DNA of 40,630 nt, taken from positions 1 through 40,630 of the forward strand of contig JAFODS010000024.1 in assembly GCA_017380575.1 (NCBI GenBank), read 5' to 3'. The notes below the pieces were generated by a model that worked only from the letters and a program-made list of their open reading frames with translations, did not search any database and was not told where the DNA came from. Positions 1,353 through 7,578 of the stretch are shown piece after piece. Origin of the DNA: Clostridia bacterium (GTDB lineage Bacteria; Bacillota; Clostridia; Oscillospirales; Acutalibacteraceae). Position numbers and translations under genes: made by a program. How positions within the stretch are numbered: the first letter of the stretch is position 1; each line of letters begins with the position of its first letter.

Positions 1353-2576
1353 ATGAAAATTATAGCTTTATTACTCACAATTATCACACCGTTTCTTACT
1401 ATGATTGTCGGAACTCCGTTCGCGAGATTTGATGATAATGTTACCGTAGCGAAAGAAAAAGTTGACGGATTTATGAAGGGTGTCTGCCATGCGGAGCCTG
1501 ACTACGAGTTGCTTAACGAAGGCAATATTGAATGGTTCCGTGATGATATTCCGTTTCCTTACGATGCAGACGGTAATCTTTCAAAAAGTTACATTAACTG
1601 GAAAGAAGAATCTAAAGAGTTTGCTGAAAACGGTGTAAGAATTTTTGGTATTACTCCGTATCCTGAAGATTATATGGAATACGGTCTTGATCCGCGTGAT
1701 CCTGCAGACAGAGAAGCTATTCAGGACATTGCACGTTTTTACGTTGAAGACCTCAAGGGCATTGTCGGTGCATTCCAGATTACTAACGAAATGGGTATCG
1801 ATCGTTTTACATTGCCTCTTACACTTGATGAAGCAGCTGAATTTATCGGTATGCAGCTTGAGGCTATGTATCCAATAAGAGGCGATGTCATTATCGGCTA
1901 TAATCTCGGCGGTCTTTCAATTGCGACTTTACCTTTCAAAATGATGAAATATAACAAATATTGTGACTATGTCGGTGTTGATATGTATCTTGGCTGTTTT
2001 GAGCCGGTGCTTAAAACTCCGAAACAGTTCAAAACAATCCTTAATTTTGTACGCCGTGTAACTAATAAGCCGATCATCCTTTGTGAATTCGGTTATATCG
2101 GTCTCGGTGAACCGAAATCAGAAGAAGAGAAAACAGCAATTCTTCAGCAGTATGGTTATAACAGCGAGGAAGAAGCTCGTGCTGATATAAACAACTTCAT
2201 TAATAAGCTTCCGAAAGATATGAAGAAAGAAATTCTTGAAGATTACAGTGACCGTTCTGACGAAGAAAAGGGCGACCTTATTTTTGATGGTGAGTACAGT
2301 AATCATCTTTACTGTGAACTTCAGGAAGGATTCGGTCTTTACAGATACGAGCATACGCCCGAAGGTCAGGCAAAATTCTTTGAGGATACAATTCCGATGG
2401 TTGCAGATCTTGACTACGTTATCGGTATGTTCGTTTACTGCTGGCAGGACAGCGGTGACTGTTATGTATGCGGTCAGGTAGAGTGTCCGGTTGAAACAAA
2501 GTGGGGTCTTGTGGATTATAACGGTGATCCGAAGCTCTCATACTATGCAGTAAAAGAAGCTTACGCAGAATTATAA
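1353..2576 (+). CDS. Secreted or membrane-anchored clan GH-A-like glycoside hydrolase
   Basis: A protein of 407 residues with an N-terminal hydrophobic segment (MKIIALLLTIITPFLTMIVG) that could be a signal peptide or anchor. The rest reads as a TIM-barrel glycosidase. An Asn-Glu pair in FQITNEMG suits the acid/base at the end of strand 4, a Glu in IILCEFGYIG suits the nucleophile on strand 7, and the ending WGLVDYNGDPKLSYYAVKEAY is typical of clan GH-A enzymes. The family and substrate cannot be named from sequence alone. I chose the ATG at 1353 because GGGGAAG lies 6-8 bases upstream; the open frame extends back to 1290 but without a ribosome site. It is a single gene between two terminators. 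Confidence 0.75.
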   Translation: MKIIALLLTIITPFLTMIVGTPFARFDDNVTVAKEKVDGFMKGVCHAEPDYELLNEGNIEWFRDDIPFPYDADGNLSKSYINWKEESKEFAENGVRIFGITPYPEDYMEYGLDPRDPADREAIQDIARFYVEDLKGIVGAFQITNEMGIDRFTLPLTLDEAAEFIGMQLEAMYPIRGDVIIGYNLGGLSIATLPFKMMKYNKYCDYVGVDMYLGCFEPVLKTPKQFKTILNFVRRVTNKPIILCEFGYIGLGEPKSEEEKTAILQQYGYNSEEEARADINNFINKLPKDMKKEILEDYSDRSDEEKGDLIFDGEYSNHLYCELQEGFGLYRYEHTPEGQAKFFEDTIPMVADLDYVIGMFVYCWQDSGDCYVCGQVECPVETKWGLVDYNGDPKLSYYAVKEAYAEL

Positions 2577-2582
2577 AATCAG

Positions 2583-2614
2583 AAAGCGACTTGCATTTGC
2601 AAGTCGCTTTTTTG
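2583..2614. terminator. Bidirectional terminator between hydrolase and phage-like repressor
   Basis: A 13-bp perfect stem (AAAGCGACTTGCA / TGCAAGTCGCTTT) with a 2-base gap is followed by TTT on the plus strand. It sits between the convergent ends of the hydrolase and the repressor. Confidence 0.88.
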
Positions 2615-3205
2615 TTAAAATTTTCCTCTTAACTCGACCACTTTGCCGATAATTGTAACGGGAAGAGTAACAATTTCCTCCGCGGTAAAAACAAGAGGTT
2701 CATAATCATTGTTGAACGGTATCAGGGTAAGCCCGGTACCGTTTTTTATTACCTTTTTGATGGTTGCATCAAGATTGTTGATAAGAACAACTCCGATTTC
2801 ACCGTTTTCTATATAATTCTGTTTACGGACAATTACAACGTCACCCTGACATATTCGCGGTGTCATACTGTCACCAACAACCCTGAGTCCGAAATGCTCG
2901 CCTTTAGCCGCCATTTCAGGAGAAATATCTTCATAATCTATTATATTTTCAATTGCTTCAGCGGGGCACCCTGCACGTACGTACCCCAGAACTGGGATGC
3001 TGTTCGGCTTTGTCGGTGTATTCTTTTTCATAAGAGTATCAATCGATACCCCAAAAATATCCGAAAGCTTTATTAATGCGTTTTTGTCGGGGAGGGTACG
3101 TCCTTTTTCCCATTGGCTGACAGCAGTCTGGTGAACGTCACAGAGCGATGCAAGCTCACGCTGAGTGATTCCTCGTTTTAATCTCAGATCTTTGATAATC
3201 GTCAT
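2615..3205 (-). CDS. XRE-S24 self-cleaving phage-type repressor (CI/LexA-like)
   Basis: A 196-residue DNA-binding repressor. Residues about 5-55 form an XRE helix-turn-helix (ITQRELASLCDVHQTAVSQW). The C-terminal half is an S24/LexA-type peptidase with an Ala-Gly cleavage site in YVRAGCP, the catalytic serine in VVGDSM and the catalytic lysine in ATIKKV. Such proteins cleave themselves when RecA is activated by DNA damage, which derepresses their targets. The start was set at the ATG at 3205, because AAGGTG lies 6 bases upstream; the in-frame GTG at 3214 falls inside that ribosome site. It is transcribed away from the six-gene lysis/tail-like operon and is probably its repressor. It is not the host LexA: it carries XRE rather than a winged helix. 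Confidence 0.9.
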   Translation of the reverse strand: MTIIKDLRLKRGITQRELASLCDVHQTAVSQWEKGRTLPDKNALIKLSDIFGVSIDTLMKKNTPTKPNSIPVLGYVRAGCPAEAIENIIDYEDISPEMAAKGEHFGLRVVGDSMTPRICQGDVVIVRKQNYIENGEIGVVLINNLDATIKKVIKNGTGLTLIPFNNDYEPLVFTAEEIVTLPVTIIGKVVELRGKF

Positions 3206-3231
3206 AAATTTCACCTTATAATATCTTTTTA

Positions 3232-3267
3232 CGATAATATTATGAGCGATACTATTAAAAAAGTCAA
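3232..3267 (-). promoter_or_regulatory. Repressor promoter overlapped by two direct-repeat operators
   Basis: On the minus strand TTGACT (3267-3262) and CATAAT (3244-3239) are 17 bases apart. Two near-identical 11-mers, CGATAATATTA at 3232-3242 and CGATACTATTA at 3247-3257, lie 15 bases apart centre to centre and cover the -10 box and the spacer. Each is partly dyad symmetric. They are good candidates for XRE repressor binding sites giving autoregulation. Confidence 0.6.
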
Positions 3268-3305
3268 TAGGAAATATAAAAATAATATTAAATTTATTAA
3301 AACTA

Positions 3306-3334
3306 TTGACAAAGTGAACAAATGTTCATAAAAT
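3306..3334 (+). promoter_or_regulatory. Operon promoter with embedded SOS-type palindrome
   Basis: TTGACA (3306-3311) and TAAAAT (3329-3334) are exactly 17 bases apart. Between them lies a perfect palindrome, TGAACAAATGTTCA (3315-3328). It contains GAAC-N4-GTTC, which is the Firmicutes LexA/DinR box consensus. A repressor bound here would block RNA polymerase directly. No other promoter is visible before 7518, so the site probably controls all six downstream genes. The site might instead belong to the adjacent S24 repressor. Confidence 0.75.
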
Positions 3335-3385
3335 AATAGATGTGCTATTGAATATACGTCGGACGAAACAGAAAGCGAGGTTAAA

Positions 3386-4030
3386 ATGAAAAGCATATCT
3401 GACGAAGTGATTTCAATTGAGGAAGCACGTGCTGCTCTGCGATGTATGCGGTTGTGCAGTTTTGATGAAGAAGAGGCTCTTGAAAGTATAGACAGTCTTG
3501 TTAGTCGAATCCGCAAAGTCGGGACAGCAAAGCTTGTTGAGGAAATAATTGAAAAAAGATTGAGCGAAACACAAAGGCTTTTTGTAAAAGAATATTGGTA
3601 TTCAAACAAAAATACAGCACAGATTGCAAGGGAAAACGGAGTTTCACAGGCTAATGTTTACAGAACGATAACAAGAGCAAACGAAACAATAAAAGAACTG
3701 ATAACACCTCTCGTAATATACCATAATGACCTTGTATCGGCTGAAATCACACCGTTATATTTCAATGAAATTATGAAAATTACTTCGGCTTTAAAGAAGG
3801 ATGAAGCTCAGTTGGCCGGACAACTGAAAAACATACGTCTTTCAAAAGCGGTAACGCCTGAGCAGGCAGCACAGGCGGTGTGCATTACCGTTAATGAGCT
3901 GGAGAAAATCGAAAACGGCAGAAAGATGCCGTCTGCGGAAATTCTTGAAAGATACAGCAAAGCTTTTAATGTTGAAATCAATCTTAAATTTATAAACGGA
4001 AAGGGACGATATGAATGGAAAGAAGCTTAA
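3386..4030 (+). CDS. Sigma-region-4-like / XRE two-headed regulator
   Basis: A 214-residue protein with two DNA-binding parts. Residues about 60-105 (LSETQRLFVKEYW, then IARENGVSQANVYRTITRA) resemble sigma-70 region 4 and phage late-gene activators of the ArpU/RinA kind. Residues about 145-205 (LSKAVTPEQAAQAV, then ELEKIENGRKMP) form an XRE-type helix-turn-helix. No sigma region 2 is visible, so it is unlikely to be a complete sigma factor. A ribosome site (GCGAGG) precedes the ATG. It is the first gene of the island operon and overlaps the next by 16 bases. It probably activates or tunes the operon, but its target is unknown. Confidence 0.7.
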   Translation: MKSISDEVISIEEARAALRCMRLCSFDEEEALESIDSLVSRIRKVGTAKLVEEIIEKRLSETQRLFVKEYWYSNKNTAQIARENGVSQANVYRTITRANETIKELITPLVIYHNDLVSAEITPLYFNEIMKITSALKKDEAQLAGQLKNIRLSKAVTPEQAAQAVCITVNELEKIENGRKMPSAEILERYSKAFNVEINLKFINGKGRYEWKEA

Positions 4031-4254
4031 CGGAACTCAGTGAAGATTATTTCAAGGCAGCTGAGGATATTAATTGCCTGATTGCGAAATACAGAAAACA
4101 GCTTAACGAAGCCTATATGGCAAACAATTACCTTAAAACTTACGAAATCAAGAGAAAATTAACGATATTCTATGACCAGAAAAGGGATATACTTGCTACT
4201 GCGTATGCGTTAAGGAATTACTATGAAAAAGACAGAAGGATGGTGCTGGCATGA
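4015..4254 (+). CDS. Small helical protein of the phage-like island
   Basis: A 79-residue charged protein I do not recognise. It looks entirely alpha-helical, with a likely coiled coil through the middle (KYRKQLNEAYMANNYLKTYE). No signal peptide or membrane segment is seen. The start overlaps the regulator by 16 bases, with GGGA 8 bases upstream, and the stop overlaps the next start as ATGA, so translation is probably coupled on both sides. Small helical proteins between regulator and tail genes are common in Firmicutes phages, but no function can be assigned. Confidence 0.72.
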   Translation: MERSLTELSEDYFKAAEDINCLIAKYRKQLNEAYMANNYLKTYEIKRKLTIFYDQKRDILATAYALRNYYEKDRRMVLA

Positions 4255-6215
4255 ATAAAATTATTCTGAAGGTTACGTCGAACCGCCTTGAAATTGAAAA
4301 GGATACATACACAACGGGTGGCAGCGTGAATTATGACAGTTGCTCGTTTGAATTTGATAACACATGGAACGGATTTATCAAAACTGCAGTTTTCGGTTTT
4401 GGTAATTCGGATTACACGAGAGTTGACCTCGACAACGATGAATGCAAAATACCTGCAATCTGTCTTCAGGATGAAGGCTTTATAAAAATAGGTGTCTACG
4501 GTGTAAACAGTGACGGGGTAGTTATTACAACGAATGCGGTCGCACATCGGGTAAATGAAGGCGTCGGTGAAGTAAACGACTGGTATGAAGAAGATAATCT
4601 CTTTGTATATAATGCCCTGAAAGAGCTTGAGGGTGCAATTGAAAAGTATAAGGGCGTACTTGAAACAAGATTTAACGACCTGCTTAAAAACCTGCGGAAT
4701 AAAGGAAGTGTCAGCGATATAGATGTTCTTCCGGGTGAGCCGGACGATTGGTATACTCCGTCGGAATTTCAAAAGTCCTCGGCTTTTCCGACAGCAACCG
4801 GTGCTGCAAAATACAACACGTACCTGAAGGCAATTTTCGGTGCTCTTGCAACCGAGTTTCCTGAATATGTAAGCGTTGAAGAAACAGGAACGGACGAGAG
4901 CGGAACGTTTCCGATTTATGCATATACTTTTGAACCTATTAATTATGAAAAGACTGTTCTTGTGACGGGATGTATTCACAGTAATAACGACGTAACACTA
5001 AAGGCACTGTCGCACTTTTTTGATGAATTGTGCCGTAATTTCAAAAATGACAGAACGCTTTCGTATCTGCGTTCAAAGGTTAAATTTGTTGTTGTACCTG
5101 TTGCGAATCCGTACGGATTTGTTAATAAGAGTAAGCGTAACGTAAACGGTGTTGACCTCGGAAAGAATTTTCCTTACAAATGGGATGAATGCAGTGCTGT
5201 TAATAAGGGCGACAGTCCGTTGAGTGAAAAAGAATCTGTTGCAATTCTCGGTATTATAGGCAGAATTTTTGAGGACAAGTTCTGTGCAGCTGTTGATGTT
5301 AATTCAGGATTGTTCAATTACTGCTCCAGGATGCTGTTCTATCCGAGATATAAGGATAATTGTCTGAGTGCACTTGCAGAAACTCTGAGCAGATACAACT
5401 ATGAAAACAGAGAAGATGATGTTACCGGCAAGGCGATTCTTGCTCCGTCGATGAATCCGAGCTTTACGAATTACCTCGCTGAAACTTTAGGTATAAATGC
5501 CTGCAGTATCAGTTGGTCGCCGTATGCTTGCTTAGGTGATGAGGTTACAAAGTTTGCCGAATTTATCGGAAATGTACTTTATTCTATATCGAAAAACAGC
5601 ACTTACACTCTTACAAAGGAAAAGCTTCCCTTTGTAAAACACTTTTCATGGAGGAGTTCAGGAAGCAATGACACTTGCAAGATAATTGCCTCTGAAACCT
5701 GTCGTAAAGTGCCGATAAGTGCATTTGAGCTTGATGTTGCAAATCCTTGTTGTATGACTCTTACGGGTTACGTGGTTCTTAAATTAACAAACAGCTGTAA
5801 TGTTACTGTTAATCCGGTGCTGTGGCAGGAAGATTCACCTGAGCAGACTTATGAAAAAAGAGCTGAAACAGATGCCTTTTCTCTTAGCCTGATGCTTGGT
5901 GAAGGTATTCATGTTATTCCTGTTGAGTCAGTTTTGCAGGCATACGCATCGGACACAAATACTCAGGTGGTAACTGTTTACCCGAAGAAGGTTCGTTTTG
6001 CACTTGCTGCAAAATCAGATATCGGTTCATCAGCCGAAATAATCGGTTGCTCATTCACACTTAACGCATTCCGAAGCGATTCGGGTAAGGCTGTTGAAAT
6101 CAGCAGACCTATGGGAAATGCAACAGATTTCACCGACCAGCACGAAGTGCCGACGCAGGAAGTTTTATATCCGAAGGAGATTGTTACGGAAAATGACCCG
6201 AGATATGATGATTAG
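4251..6215 (+). CDS. Phage tail-tip/receptor-binding-like protein with degenerate M14 carboxypeptidase domain
   Basis: A 654-residue protein. Residues about 1-110 resemble the beta-rich N-terminal module of Clostridia phage baseplate/tail proteins (EFDNTWNGFIKTAVFGF, IPAICLQDEGFIKIGVYGV). A helical linker (about 120-155) follows. Residues about 170-450 have the layout of an M14 zinc carboxypeptidase, but key residues are changed. The HxxE motif reads H243-S-N-N246. The NR substrate pair reads G304-K305 in VDLGKNFP. The third zinc ligand (usually DxHS) is Asn351 in VDVNSG. The expected catalytic Glu region reads ACSISWSP. The last 200 residues look beta-rich and unknown. It is therefore more likely a peptide- or wall-binding protein than an active peptidase. 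It overlaps its upstream neighbour by 4 bases. Confidence 0.72.
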   Translation: MNKIILKVTSNRLEIEKDTYTTGGSVNYDSCSFEFDNTWNGFIKTAVFGFGNSDYTRVDLDNDECKIPAICLQDEGFIKIGVYGVNSDGVVITTNAVAHRVNEGVGEVNDWYEEDNLFVYNALKELEGAIEKYKGVLETRFNDLLKNLRNKGSVSDIDVLPGEPDDWYTPSEFQKSSAFPTATGAAKYNTYLKAIFGALATEFPEYVSVEETGTDESGTFPIYAYTFEPINYEKTVLVTGCIHSNNDVTLKALSHFFDELCRNFKNDRTLSYLRSKVKFVVVPVANPYGFVNKSKRNVNGVDLGKNFPYKWDECSAVNKGDSPLSEKESVAILGIIGRIFEDKFCAAVDVNSGLFNYCSRMLFYPRYKDNCLSALAETLSRYNYENREDDVTGKAILAPSMNPSFTNYLAETLGINACSISWSPYACLGDEVTKFAEFIGNVLYSISKNSTYTLTKEKLPFVKHFSWRSSGSNDTCKIIASETCRKVPISAFELDVANPCCMTLTGYVVLKLTNSCNVTVNPVLWQEDSPEQTYEKRAETDAFSLSLMLGEGIHVIPVESVLQAYASDTNTQVVTVYPKKVRFALAAKSDIGSSAEIIGCSFTLNAFRSDSGKAVEISRPMGNATDFTDQHEVPTQEVLYPKEIVTENDPRYDD

Positions 6216-6372
6216 TGTTGAAATGGAGCTGTCGTCGCTTTTTCTTGCTTTAAGACTTTCAAAGCAGGTTGAACTGTGCAGGTTCAACGGCGACGACGAT
6301 TTTACACTTTTTCGTACCTTTGCAGAAATAATAAGGGAATATGAAAATAAAAAGGAGAAAGAGAATAAATGA
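6205..6372 (+). CDS. Small hypothetical protein before the endolysin
   Basis: A 55-residue protein, MMISVEMELSSL to the end, with no recognisable family. The start is uncertain: ATGs at 6193, 6205 and 6208 all overlap the end of the tail-like gene and none has a strong ribosome site, so translational coupling is likely. The lysine/glutamate-rich tail (NKKEKENK) runs into the endolysin start through an ATGA overlap. Similar tiny genes are common between tail and lysis genes in Firmicutes phages. Confidence 0.55.
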   Translation: MMISVEMELSSLFLALRLSKQVELCRFNGDDDFTLFRTFAEIIREYENKKEKENK

Positions 6373-7064
6373 GCAAAATCACTAATATAATTTTTAACGG
6401 TAAAAGCCATTACGTTACCTCAGCTTACGGTAAACGTAATGTATTAAATACAGAAGCAGGCACGACAAACTCATTTCATTACGGTACAGATTACGGCACA
6501 AACGGAAAGAAGATTGCACAGTATGCGATTGAAAAGGGGAGTGTCATAAGTTGCGGAAAGGCTTCTGACGGAGCTTTGTATGTGTGGGTTAAGTATCCGC
6601 GAATAAATAAAAAAATGCTTCACTATCACCTTGATAAAGTGAAAGTGAAAGCGGGTCAGGCAGTACAGAGAGGAACACTTCTCGGTTATACCGGAAAAAC
6701 GGGAAAGGCTACGGGAGTTCATCTTCATCTTGCTGTCAAGGATTTATCAACGGATAACTACGAAGATCCCGAAAAGTTCGCACTTTCATATAAAGAACCG
6801 ATTGTATATAAAAAGGGGACGTATGTTGTAACCGCAAACCTTCTCAGGGTAAGACGCGGACCTTCAACGGATTATGATTACAAAAAGTTTTCGTTCTTCA
6901 CTCCGAATGCTCAGTCACAGATACGAAAGCTTAACGCAGGAAACTCTGCACACGGTCTTGTTAAGGGCTGTGTATGTACGGTGTCCGAGGTTGATGATAA
7001 CTGGGGAAAGATTCCGTCGGGCTGGATCTGCCTTGATTACTGTAAGATGAAGGTGGCAACATGA
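6369..7064 (+). CDS. M23 endopeptidase endolysin with SH3-like domain
   Basis: A 231-residue cell-wall hydrolase. Residues 1-150 form an M23 (LytM-like) zinc endopeptidase with an HxxxD motif at H37-D41 (HYGTD), a histidine pair at H85/H87 and the HxH motif at H118/H120 (GVHLHLAV). It should cut peptide cross-links in peptidoglycan. The C-terminal part from about residue 160 (VVTANLLRVRRGPSTDYDY, later GWICLDY) is a bacterial SH3-like wall-binding domain. It has no signal peptide, so release depends on the holin genes directly downstream. It overlaps both neighbours by ATGA, which is a classic lysis-cassette arrangement. Confidence 0.9.
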   Translation: MSKITNIIFNGKSHYVTSAYGKRNVLNTEAGTTNSFHYGTDYGTNGKKIAQYAIEKGSVISCGKASDGALYVWVKYPRINKKMLHYHLDKVKVKAGQAVQRGTLLGYTGKTGKATGVHLHLAVKDLSTDNYEDPEKFALSYKEPIVYKKGTYVVTANLLRVRRGPSTDYDYKKFSFFTPNAQSQIRKLNAGNSAHGLVKGCVCTVSEVDDNWGKIPSGWICLDYCKMKVAT

Positions 7065-7279
7065 CAGACATTATAACGGCATTGATTGCCTTATGCGGTA
7101 CAATGTTCGGAACCTTCGGCGGAATACTTGCAGCAAACAAACTCACGGTATACCGCATCGAACAGCTCGAACAGAAGGTTTCAAAGCATAATAACCTTGT
7201 TGAAAGAATGTTTTTGGTGGAAAGTTCAGCAAAATCCGCACACCACAGAATAGACGAATTAAGGGAGGAAATTAAGTGA
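7061..7279 (+). CDS. XhlA-like lysis-associated membrane protein
   Basis: A 72-residue protein with one N-terminal membrane segment (IITALIALCGTMFGTFGGILAA) and then a charged, probably coiled-coil tail (IEQLEQKVSKHNNLVERM). Size, topology and position between endolysin and holin match XhlA-type proteins of PBSX-like lysis cassettes, which act with the holin. It overlaps the endolysin gene by ATGA and the holin gene by GTGA. The family call rests on layout and pattern, not on an alignment. Confidence 0.75.
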   Translation: MTDIITALIALCGTMFGTFGGILAANKLTVYRIEQLEQKVSKHNNLVERMFLVESSAKSAHHRIDELREEIK

Positions 7280-7518
7280 AAAAGATAAATCTTAAAGGTG
7301 TTTCTAACCAGACTTGGGTAAGGACGATTGTGTTGGTTCTTGCTCTTGTAAACCAAGCACTTGTTATGTTCGGAGTTACAGATAATGAAGTCGAGCTTGA
7401 AACATGGACGCGATACGCCACTTATATTTTTACCGTGATTTCAGCACTCTGGTCATGGTGGAAAAACAACAGCTTCACTGCGAAAGCGCAGGAAGCTGAT
7501 ACGTTACTAAAACAATAA
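7276..7518 (+). CDS. SPP1-family phage holin
   Basis: An 80-residue protein starting with GTG (the overlapping GTGA carries the previous stop). It has two membrane segments, about residues 16-34 (TIVLVLALVNQALVMFGV) and 47-63 (YATYIFTVISALWSWW), then a short charged tail. The phrase ending WWKNNSFT is typical of SPP1-type holins. It would open the cytoplasmic membrane to release the M23 endolysin. It is the last gene of the island operon, followed by a strong hairpin. Confidence 0.87.
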   Translation: MKKINLKGVSNQTWVRTIVLVLALVNQALVMFGVTDNEVELETWTRYATYIFTVISALWSWWKNNSFTAKAQEADTLLKQ

Positions 7519-7546
7519 GTTGAATTTTGAATAATCTCCTGAAAAA

Positions 7547-7578
7547 GACAGCCCTCTGATTAATTTCAGAGGGCTGTC
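7547..7578. terminator. Bidirectional terminator between island and gpmI
   Basis: A perfect 13-bp stem (GACAGCCCTCTGA / TCAGAGGGCTGTC) has a 6-base loop. On the minus strand it is followed by TTTTTC, so it serves gpmI well; on the plus strand it ends the lysis operon with a weaker T tract. Confidence 0.9.

Follow-up and report, generated by a model that had tools for sequence, protein, structure and literature searches.

A phage-derived fibre and lysis operon behind a LexA box in a genus of Acutalibacteraceae: a probable SOS-driven lysis-and-release system

Colicin operons place a cargo gene and a lysis gene together behind a promoter controlled by LexA; they are plasmid-borne and include an immunity gene and a small lysis protein, with no endolysin or phage holin. 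The subject of the present work is a block of genes whose organization can be compared with that of such systems, and which lies at positions 2615-7518 of a 40,630-nucleotide stretch of DNA (positions 1-40,630 of the forward strand of contig JAFODS010000024.1, assembly GCA_017380575.1, from a Clostridia bacterium of the family Acutalibacteraceae) that is referred to here as the window. The Bcn5 and UviA-UviB operons of Clostridium perfringens and C. algidicarnis (PMC9527704, PMC4885068) combine a sigma factor, a holin, an endolysin and a bacteriocin with an M14 domain, and one of these accounts leans towards non-lytic release of the bacteriocin (PMC9527704). Clusters of holin, endolysin and spanin genes outside phages have been described as type 10 secretion systems (T10SS), and the cluster in Yersinia is called insensitive to the SOS (DNA-damage) response (PMC10847048).

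In the block described here, a gene for an S24 repressor on the minus strand faces a coupled operon on the plus strand (3386-7518). The block has a LexA box and operator-like repeats and is conserved across a genus, and no virion genes are recognised beside it. A sequence-only reading of the window had proposed an SOS-switched island of phage-derived lysis and receptor-binding genes, and the open reading frames (ORFs) that it listed are all open and lie where it had placed them. The explanation that we favour, and which we consider rather probable, is that the block is a domesticated, virion-less piece of the distal late operon of a siphophage which has come under the SOS control of its host, and that it serves as an SOS-driven lysis-and-release operon. 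In the mechanism that we infer, LexA, together with the local S24 repressor where one is present, would hold the operon off in healthy cells; after DNA damage, active RecA would bring about the cleavage of both LexA and the S24 repressor, and the promoter would open. One coupled transcript would then supply a sigma-4-like regulator, a fibre-like protein, an endolysin, an XhlA-like protein and a holin; the holin and endolysin would lyse the producing cell, and the fibre-like protein would be released along with other cytosolic proteins made under SOS, which may act on or bind to the walls of neighbouring cells.

The SOS box and the operator-like repeats

The operon is preceded by a promoter of the sigma-70 type on the plus strand (TTGACA-17-TAAAAT, 3306-3334, with 11/12 consensus bases), which is also visible in alignment and whose -35 and -10 elements occupy 3306-3311 and 3329-3334. 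Between these elements, at 3316-3327, lies a LexA/SOS box, GAACAAATGTTC, of a type that we take to be the LexA box of the Firmicutes and that was then compared with the boxes found before lexA. The genus comparison covers 18 congeneric genomes with completeness of 61-97%, at least 90% in 5/18; all 15 congener loci that were traced come from metagenome-assembled genomes, and their incompleteness makes claims of absence weak. The box is present in 16/17 genus loci, and the ACAAATGT core of the operon's box also precedes lexA in 18/18 genomes, where lexA carries AAACAAATGTTT 73-87 bp before the profile match (138 bp in the fragmentary copy of genome G002). The sequence-only reading had suggested SOS control and had noted neither the box nor the operator-like repeats; the box and its match to the lexA core make the case for SOS control stronger than the S24 gene alone implied.

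The box was also counted over a wider set of 55 loci (17 from the genus, 31 from other genera found with profile A1, and 7 found with profile A5), using the pattern [GA]AAC(AAAT/ATTT)GTT[CT] in the 330 bp that precede the regulator gene. Locus L270 was left out before the count, its match being a single 80-amino-acid ORF, and L076 lies outside it, its contig having no regulator gene. The box was found in 43/55 loci (16/17 in the genus, 23/31 with profile A1 and 4/7 with profile A5), compared with only 2 copies of the same pattern in all the rest of these loci (859,537 bp).

The S24 protein, of the LexA/CI type with a helix-turn-helix (HTH) domain (2615-3214, minus strand; PF00717 9.9e-30, PF01381 1.1e-16, phrog_4 5e-44), has what we take to be an Ala-Gly site, the serine of a GDSM motif and the lysine motifs. 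Its gene adjoins the operon in 12 of the 17 genus loci with upstream sequence. Two operator-like repeats accompany it: O2 (3237-3256), which overlies the repressor's own promoter, and O1 (ATAGATGTGCTATT, 3336-3349), which lies just downstream of the -10 element. Both patterns are found in 12/12 genus loci with an adjacent S24 gene and in 0/5 without one, and at loci of other genera that have an S24 gene O1 is found in 6/9 and O2 in 5/9. O1 has one exact copy in its own genome, and with one mismatch allowed it occurs 7 times, a number that its reversed control equals or exceeds. In four genomes (G003, G004, G008 and G009) neither the S24 gene nor either of the repeats is present and the LexA box and the operon are kept, and no second S24-type match is listed genome-wide in them; the fifth locus without an S24 gene (L071, in G002) has no box either, and that genome has an S24-type match on another contig. 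That the gene and its repeats are absent together while box and operon stay in four of these five loci, that the box is concentrated upstream of the regulator, that lexA shares its core, and that one of the further sites in the window's own genome precedes a Y-family polymerase gene are the grounds for the SOS part of the domestication reading, and on this comparison of sequences we regard the SOS wiring of the operon as well supported.

Six sites of the form GAAC(AAAT/ATTT)GTTC occur in the window's own genome, including that of the operon itself; the other five precede a Y-family polymerase gene, a second fibre-like gene, ORFs for an 88-amino-acid and a 262-amino-acid protein, and a barnase-like/barstar pair. 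The 88-amino-acid protein (L186:4011-4324) has one N-terminal hydrophobic segment and is possibly, at a guess, a division inhibitor. The 262-amino-acid protein (L188:3038-3880) has a weak C-terminal HTH resembling those of sigma region 4 and LexA (below cut-offs) and is a possible further SOS regulator. In L189 (G000:C76:6001-13000), at 2573-3447, the box lies near an ORF for a barnase-like RNase (PF00545 1.4e-8) and a barstar gene (PF01337 1.3e-14); the barnase-like gene was considered as possible cargo and is recorded here only as an observation, because no single open frame runs from the box to the RNase ORF. The second fibre-like gene (G000:C12:7586-9008, L077; also L078-L081) stands alone beside genes read as manA-like and SPOCS-like, with a LexA box just upstream. 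Its product has an N domain related to that of the block's fibre-like protein (hhalign probability 96.7%) and a C-terminal part resembling leucine-rich repeats (DUF285, weak). The box precedes this gene in 4 genomes and a more distant relative, situated elsewhere, in 1 (L081), which is 5/5 of the cases inspected.

Conservation in the genus and exchange of parts beyond it

The regulator is found in 17/18 congeners and the fibre-like protein, whole or in part, in 18/18, and the run of M23 endolysin, XhlA-like protein and holin is open and in the same order in 17/18 (the window and 17 congener loci; the exception, L071, breaks off within the fibre gene). Eight loci, including the window, lie at or beside the site between tuf and gpmI, and by our reading of the neighbouring genes the rest lie at several other sites among housekeeping genes. 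The ratio of nonsynonymous to synonymous divergence (dN/dS, NG86) of the block genes is 0.02-0.21 wherever dS is finite (six pairs), values that show constraint and not its exact strength, because dS is often above 1 and for the fibre gene lies beyond the formula in two pairs. Protein distances correlate with the LexA distances in sets of 12 to 18 genomes (Mantel r 0.68-0.85), and for each of 7 proteins the observed value was reached in 0/2000 permutations. The expectation that the block would be conserved with intact frames and dN/dS below 1 is thus borne out, and within the genus the block is not confined to the vicinity of complete prophages or to scattered remnants. That the gene order recurs throughout the genus, and outside it with parts exchanged, is more than chance as judged by these sequence comparisons. 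A decaying prophage remnant would account for the phage-derived genes and for the one split fibre gene (L062) and the two truncated ones (L065 and L072), and is nonetheless a very improbable explanation in view of the purifying selection, the codivergence with LexA, the retention of the box where the S24 gene is absent, and the presence of the same plan in several genera.

No integrase, terminase, capsid or portal gene was recognised in the ORFs of the window and the 17 congener loci, terminase alone among these having been searched by model; three virion families in all were searched in this way, and the other absences are readings of ORFs. The large terminase subunit (TerL) was matched in 1/18 congeners, on another contig than its block. 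That match (G008:C38:105173-105691), the only PF03354 match among the 18, suggests that this genome may carry a prophage. A tail sheath above the cut-off was found in 0/18 genomes (with one sub-threshold match) and Dit in 0/18, with a Dit model that is positive in only 1/14 control genomes; tube and tape-measure genes were not searched genome-wide. These counts agree with the earlier view that the block is neither a simple prophage nor an R-type tailocin, within the limits that incomplete genomes set to any absence. They are also the reason for rejecting, as a main explanation, the idea that the block supplies lysis and fibre functions to a tailocin split in two, with its tail genes elsewhere; the second fibre-like gene with its SOS box would suit that idea, which we hold to be highly doubtful given sheath, Dit and TerL counts of this kind, in incomplete genomes and with other F-type tail genes outside the search.

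The search of the family covered 398 genomes of 135 genera, in which profile A1 matched 37/398 genomes at E 1e-15 or better, in 11/135 genera. The sigma part alone (profile A11) matched 127/398 genomes, of which 42/398 lie above about 1e-24 by our own count and cut; the weaker matches are mostly short partial matches to region 4, and the upper group alone was used. About 13 of the 31 loci of other genera that were read have a lysin together with an XhlA-like protein, a holin or both (the lysin of L125 being uncertain), 6 are partial or at a contig edge, and about 12 consist, by our reading, of the regulator with or without the 79-amino-acid gene that follows it in the window, with no recognised lysis genes. 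Eight other-genus lysins were checked by Pfam and belong to the amidase_3, GH25, NlpC/P60 and M15 families, apart from that of L125, which has no lysin match. The 8 proteins checked at the fibre position include two with Big_2, three with matches to tail-fibre families, one with coiled-coil matches and two with none, and in some loci no fibre gene was recognised. In six loci of genera g98 and g19 a similar operon begins with a regulator that lacks the XRE part and has no S24 gene next to it; the 79-amino-acid gene is present in 3/6, and L264 and L266 have no box. A search by gene order matched 24/394 genomes, mostly in part, and of the 8 loci taken from it 7 entered the box count.

It could be argued from these data that the selected unit is the SOS-controlled regulator pair, acting as a DNA-damage transcription factor, and that the lysis genes are passengers in some lineages. 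The header-only loci, 9/12 of which have the box, would fit such a view; we judge it improbable, in that the lysis genes are open in nearly all congeners and are replaced by other intact lysins in other genera. Five loci of genus g4 (L141, L143, L149, L151 and L152) have a regulator with an SOS box and its 79-amino-acid partner without recognised lysis genes, and might represent a stand-alone SOS transcription factor. At L124, L128, L129 and L140 (g16 and g87) genes read as resembling ftsX, a murein hydrolase and an S41 protease lie no more than about 8 kb from the island, which hints at an old shared site.

The fibre-like protein and the other genes

The first gene of the operon (3386-4030, plus strand, as are all those that follow) encodes a 214-amino-acid regulator with a part like sigma region 4 (PF04545 0.00096 and TIGR02937 3.9e-7, both below curated cut-offs) and an XRE part (PF01381 9.5e-11). 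The 79-amino-acid protein at 4015-4254, probably helical, often accompanies the regulator and shows conservation within the genus as well as in many loci of other genera; scans of the Pfam, PHROG and NCBIfam type gave no family for it beyond a chance-level Pfam match. It is followed by the 654-amino-acid protein at 4251-6215, which has a phage-type N domain (about residues 1-104, covered by the phrog_19695 match at 1.1e-9) and a fold of M14 carboxypeptidases with a degenerate zinc site (PF00246 1.2e-16, phrog_4722 9.5e-65). The M14 region matches carboxypeptidases and phage M14 proteins, and the earlier label of a tail-tip-like protein is better replaced by that of a fibre-like protein with an M14 fold. 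The 54-amino-acid protein at 6208-6372, which has no family match, is matched by BLAST in 6 congeners, each time at the tuf-gpmI site. Its gene adjoins the fibre gene, where the immunity gene of a colicin-type operon would be expected beside the toxin; it is kept in L065, where the C-terminal part of the fibre is gone, and no match to it was found in L063 and L067-L070, where that part is present.

The lysis genes comprise an M23 endopeptidase endolysin (6369-7064; PF01551 1.5e-13, 17-row alignment), the C-terminal half of which we read as SH3-like, an XhlA-like membrane or coiled-coil protein (7061-7279; a weak PF10779 match at 0.078, phrog_1863 2.7e-19), and an SPP1-type holin (7276-7518; PF04688 4.8e-27 and TIGR01592 6.1e-17, the latter above its cut-off). 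Three congener loci (L060:6908-7687, L062:2054-2902 and L063:12936-13715) have between holin and gpmI an extra XRE-type protein of 259-282 amino acids that is not in the window. A holin, an endolysin and a large co-transcribed protein in one operon also correspond to a model in the literature, non-lytic secretion through the holin, which has been argued for clostridial toxins and Bcn5 (PMC9527704) and by which the fibre-like protein would leave an intact cell. The retention of endolysin, XhlA-like protein and holin together in nearly every congener suits lysis and leaves room for secretion; secretion without lysis is, in our estimate, unlikely here.

Adjacent genes of the operon overlap by 16, 4, 8, 4, 4 and 4 bases, which corrects the range of 1-26 bases reported earlier. 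The strong terminators reported for both ends hold for the right-hand one, a strong terminator-like hairpin listed on both strands at 7547-7578 (13 pairs; the 78-nucleotide stretch has -28.3 kcal/mol and z -6.5); on the left there is a 12-pair hairpin at 2583-2610. The housekeeping flanks stand as regards elongation factor Tu upstream and gpmI downstream, the latter followed by tpiA and pgk; the supposed glycoside hydrolase gene (1290-2576) has no significant Pfam, NCBIfam or PDB match.

Relatives of the N domain occur in 12 viral contigs and lie beside tail genes in all 7 that are annotated. In one of these contigs (L233) the order is a tape-measure-like protein, a Dit-like protein, two tail-like proteins, the N-domain fibre, XhlA and a holin-like protein (some of these names being assigned by reading), while in L234 and L236 the N-domain gene directly follows a tape-measure-like gene instead. 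Relatives of the M23 protein also occur in 12 viral contigs, and the block has a gene order like that found where the late operons of siphophages end. The regulator has no match in 50,697 phage records (tblastn) and none in viral contigs by a single peptide pattern, a weak search, and the block was not found in plasmids (blastn); carriage by phages or plasmids was rejected on these results. The L233 gene order is, together with the low dN/dS, the codivergence with LexA, the open lysis genes, and the recurrence of the same plan with other lysins in other genera, what the domestication reading rests on. From its position the N domain would be expected to serve in docking. In phage TP901-1 the N-terminal domain of BppU attaches that protein to Dit (PMC6115969), and the only hint in a PDB search with the N domain was a phage 'Fiber Upper' chain (6v8i, E 0.7, not significant).

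Among the parts of the fibre-like protein the N domain is the best kept, with a mean pairwise identity of 50% against 38% for the M14 core and 36% for the C-terminal part, and it is more similar than the M14 core in 101/105 pairs. Two congeners keep the N domain only (L065, 120 amino acids, and L072, 129 amino acids). In the window the zinc site has HSNN for HxxE and Asn for the third His; among 15 long homologues HxxE and the third His are intact in 3 (L067, L069 and L070), Asp replaces Glu in 2 (L068 and L071), and the ligands are incomplete in 10, including the window, in a count that depends on the alignment and covers HxxE and the third His, with the catalytic Glu not included and the split gene L062 outside it. 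Incomplete ligands and congeners reduced to the N domain weigh against a simple enzyme-bacteriocin, and the loss of ligands suggests that the fibre may act by binding in many species or that the N domain matters most.

Two further explanations involve the N domain. In the first, the block is an anti-phage suicide device, in which phage attack or prophage induction would cause an SOS response and lysis while phages are still being assembled, and the fibre thus set free would spoil or redirect tails; the strong conservation of the N domain, its persistence alone in two congeners, and its occurrence on phage-contig proteins and, in related form, on the second SOS-box gene are consistent with this. 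PADLOC gave matches to the two regulators alone, for the most part within the HTH regions; the remaining six proteins had none, and a defence system was rejected on this result. Moreover, other genera have an unrelated N domain or, in some loci, no recognised fibre gene; we regard the suicide explanation as possible and rather unlikely. In the second, which is speculative and to which we give a similarly small weight, these would be family-wide SOS-triggered 'free-fibre' islands that have discarded the particle and kept fibre and lysis genes as an altruistic weapon, the N domain acting on phage tails so as to poison or re-target phages that kin release or are attacked by, and fibres, lysins and holins being exchangeable behind a LexA-regulated header that all the islands share. 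A fibre N domain common to all genera is not supported, the N domain of the window having no detectable homology to that of other genera (hhalign probability 0.8%).

This lack of homology also weighs against the lysis-and-release reading that we favour, as do the zinc ligands and N-domain-only congeners just described, the splitting of one fibre gene over two frames (L062, genome G013), the header-only loci of other genera, the large dS values, and the following observations. Regulators without a box number 12/55 (13/56 if L270, which has none, is counted). The looser GAACN4GTTC pattern shows no enrichment over the genome, with 33 sites against 122 for the reversed control; 12/33 sites were inspected, and of the six without the AAAT/ATTT centre five lie within long ORFs of other kinds. 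In the four comparable pairs every block gene has a larger dN than gpmI and tpiA, and no recognisable immunity gene accompanies the block.

Comparison with described systems

No earlier description of this island was recognised in the open-licence literature. Precedents for its proposed mechanism may be seen in colicin operons, Bcn5/UviAB and T10SS. With the T10SS of Serratia and Yersinia (PMC10847048) the block shares a holin/endolysin cassette that lies apart from any phage, with regulators and essential genes around it, and a holin with an endolysin outside a prophage, which characterizes a T10SS, is present here. Those systems are Gram-negative and have spanins, and their cargo is not a phage fibre. 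No spanin genes were recognised among the ORFs of the block, and none are expected in a cell without an outer membrane, so that the block would work like a T10SS without being filed as one. With colicin operons it shares the LexA-controlled promoter and the combination of cargo and lysis in one operon.

R- and F-type tailocins are likewise SOS-linked, phage-derived and released by a lysis module (PMC10538166), and the block differs from them in that no sheath or Dit above cut-off was found in the genus and no tail genes were recognised in the locus. The M14 region is 31.8% identical to that of Staphylococcus phage StB27 and 24.7% identical to that of Bacillus phage Palmer, proteins which, unlike the present one, are encoded in complete phage genomes.

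Should the favoured reading be true, lysis cassettes outside phages would not be only Gram-negative, and an SOS-wired version with swappable modules would be a stable chromosomal trait of gut Clostridia. The reading also opens to experiment the questions whether commensals burst when antibiotics, inflammation or phage attack damage their DNA in the gut, and what a tail fibre can do without a tail.

The nearest analogue is Bcn5/UviAB, which is clostridial and has a sigma factor, a holin, an endolysin and an M14-domain (MpaA-like) protein that lacks a leader (PMC9527704, PMC4885068); UviA is placed there in the TcdR sigma family and UviB among BhlA-family holins. Its promoters are reportedly inducible by ultraviolet light, as the title of one reference has it, and are said to be linked to SOS. 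No sigma factor of the TcdR family was found here: 24/25 regulators match the general sigma70-ECF model, the match of the window covering the region-4 end only and falling below the cut-off. Matches by tblastn to plasmid records (11 and 17) included no Clostridium, in a collection not checked for the Bcn5 plasmid. The M14 class is what the cargo can be seen to share with Bcn5, and in place of the UviAB components the present system has a regulator with region 4 only and an XRE part together with its 79-amino-acid partner, an SPP1-type holin, a fibre with a phage-type N domain, and a chromosomal position across the genus.

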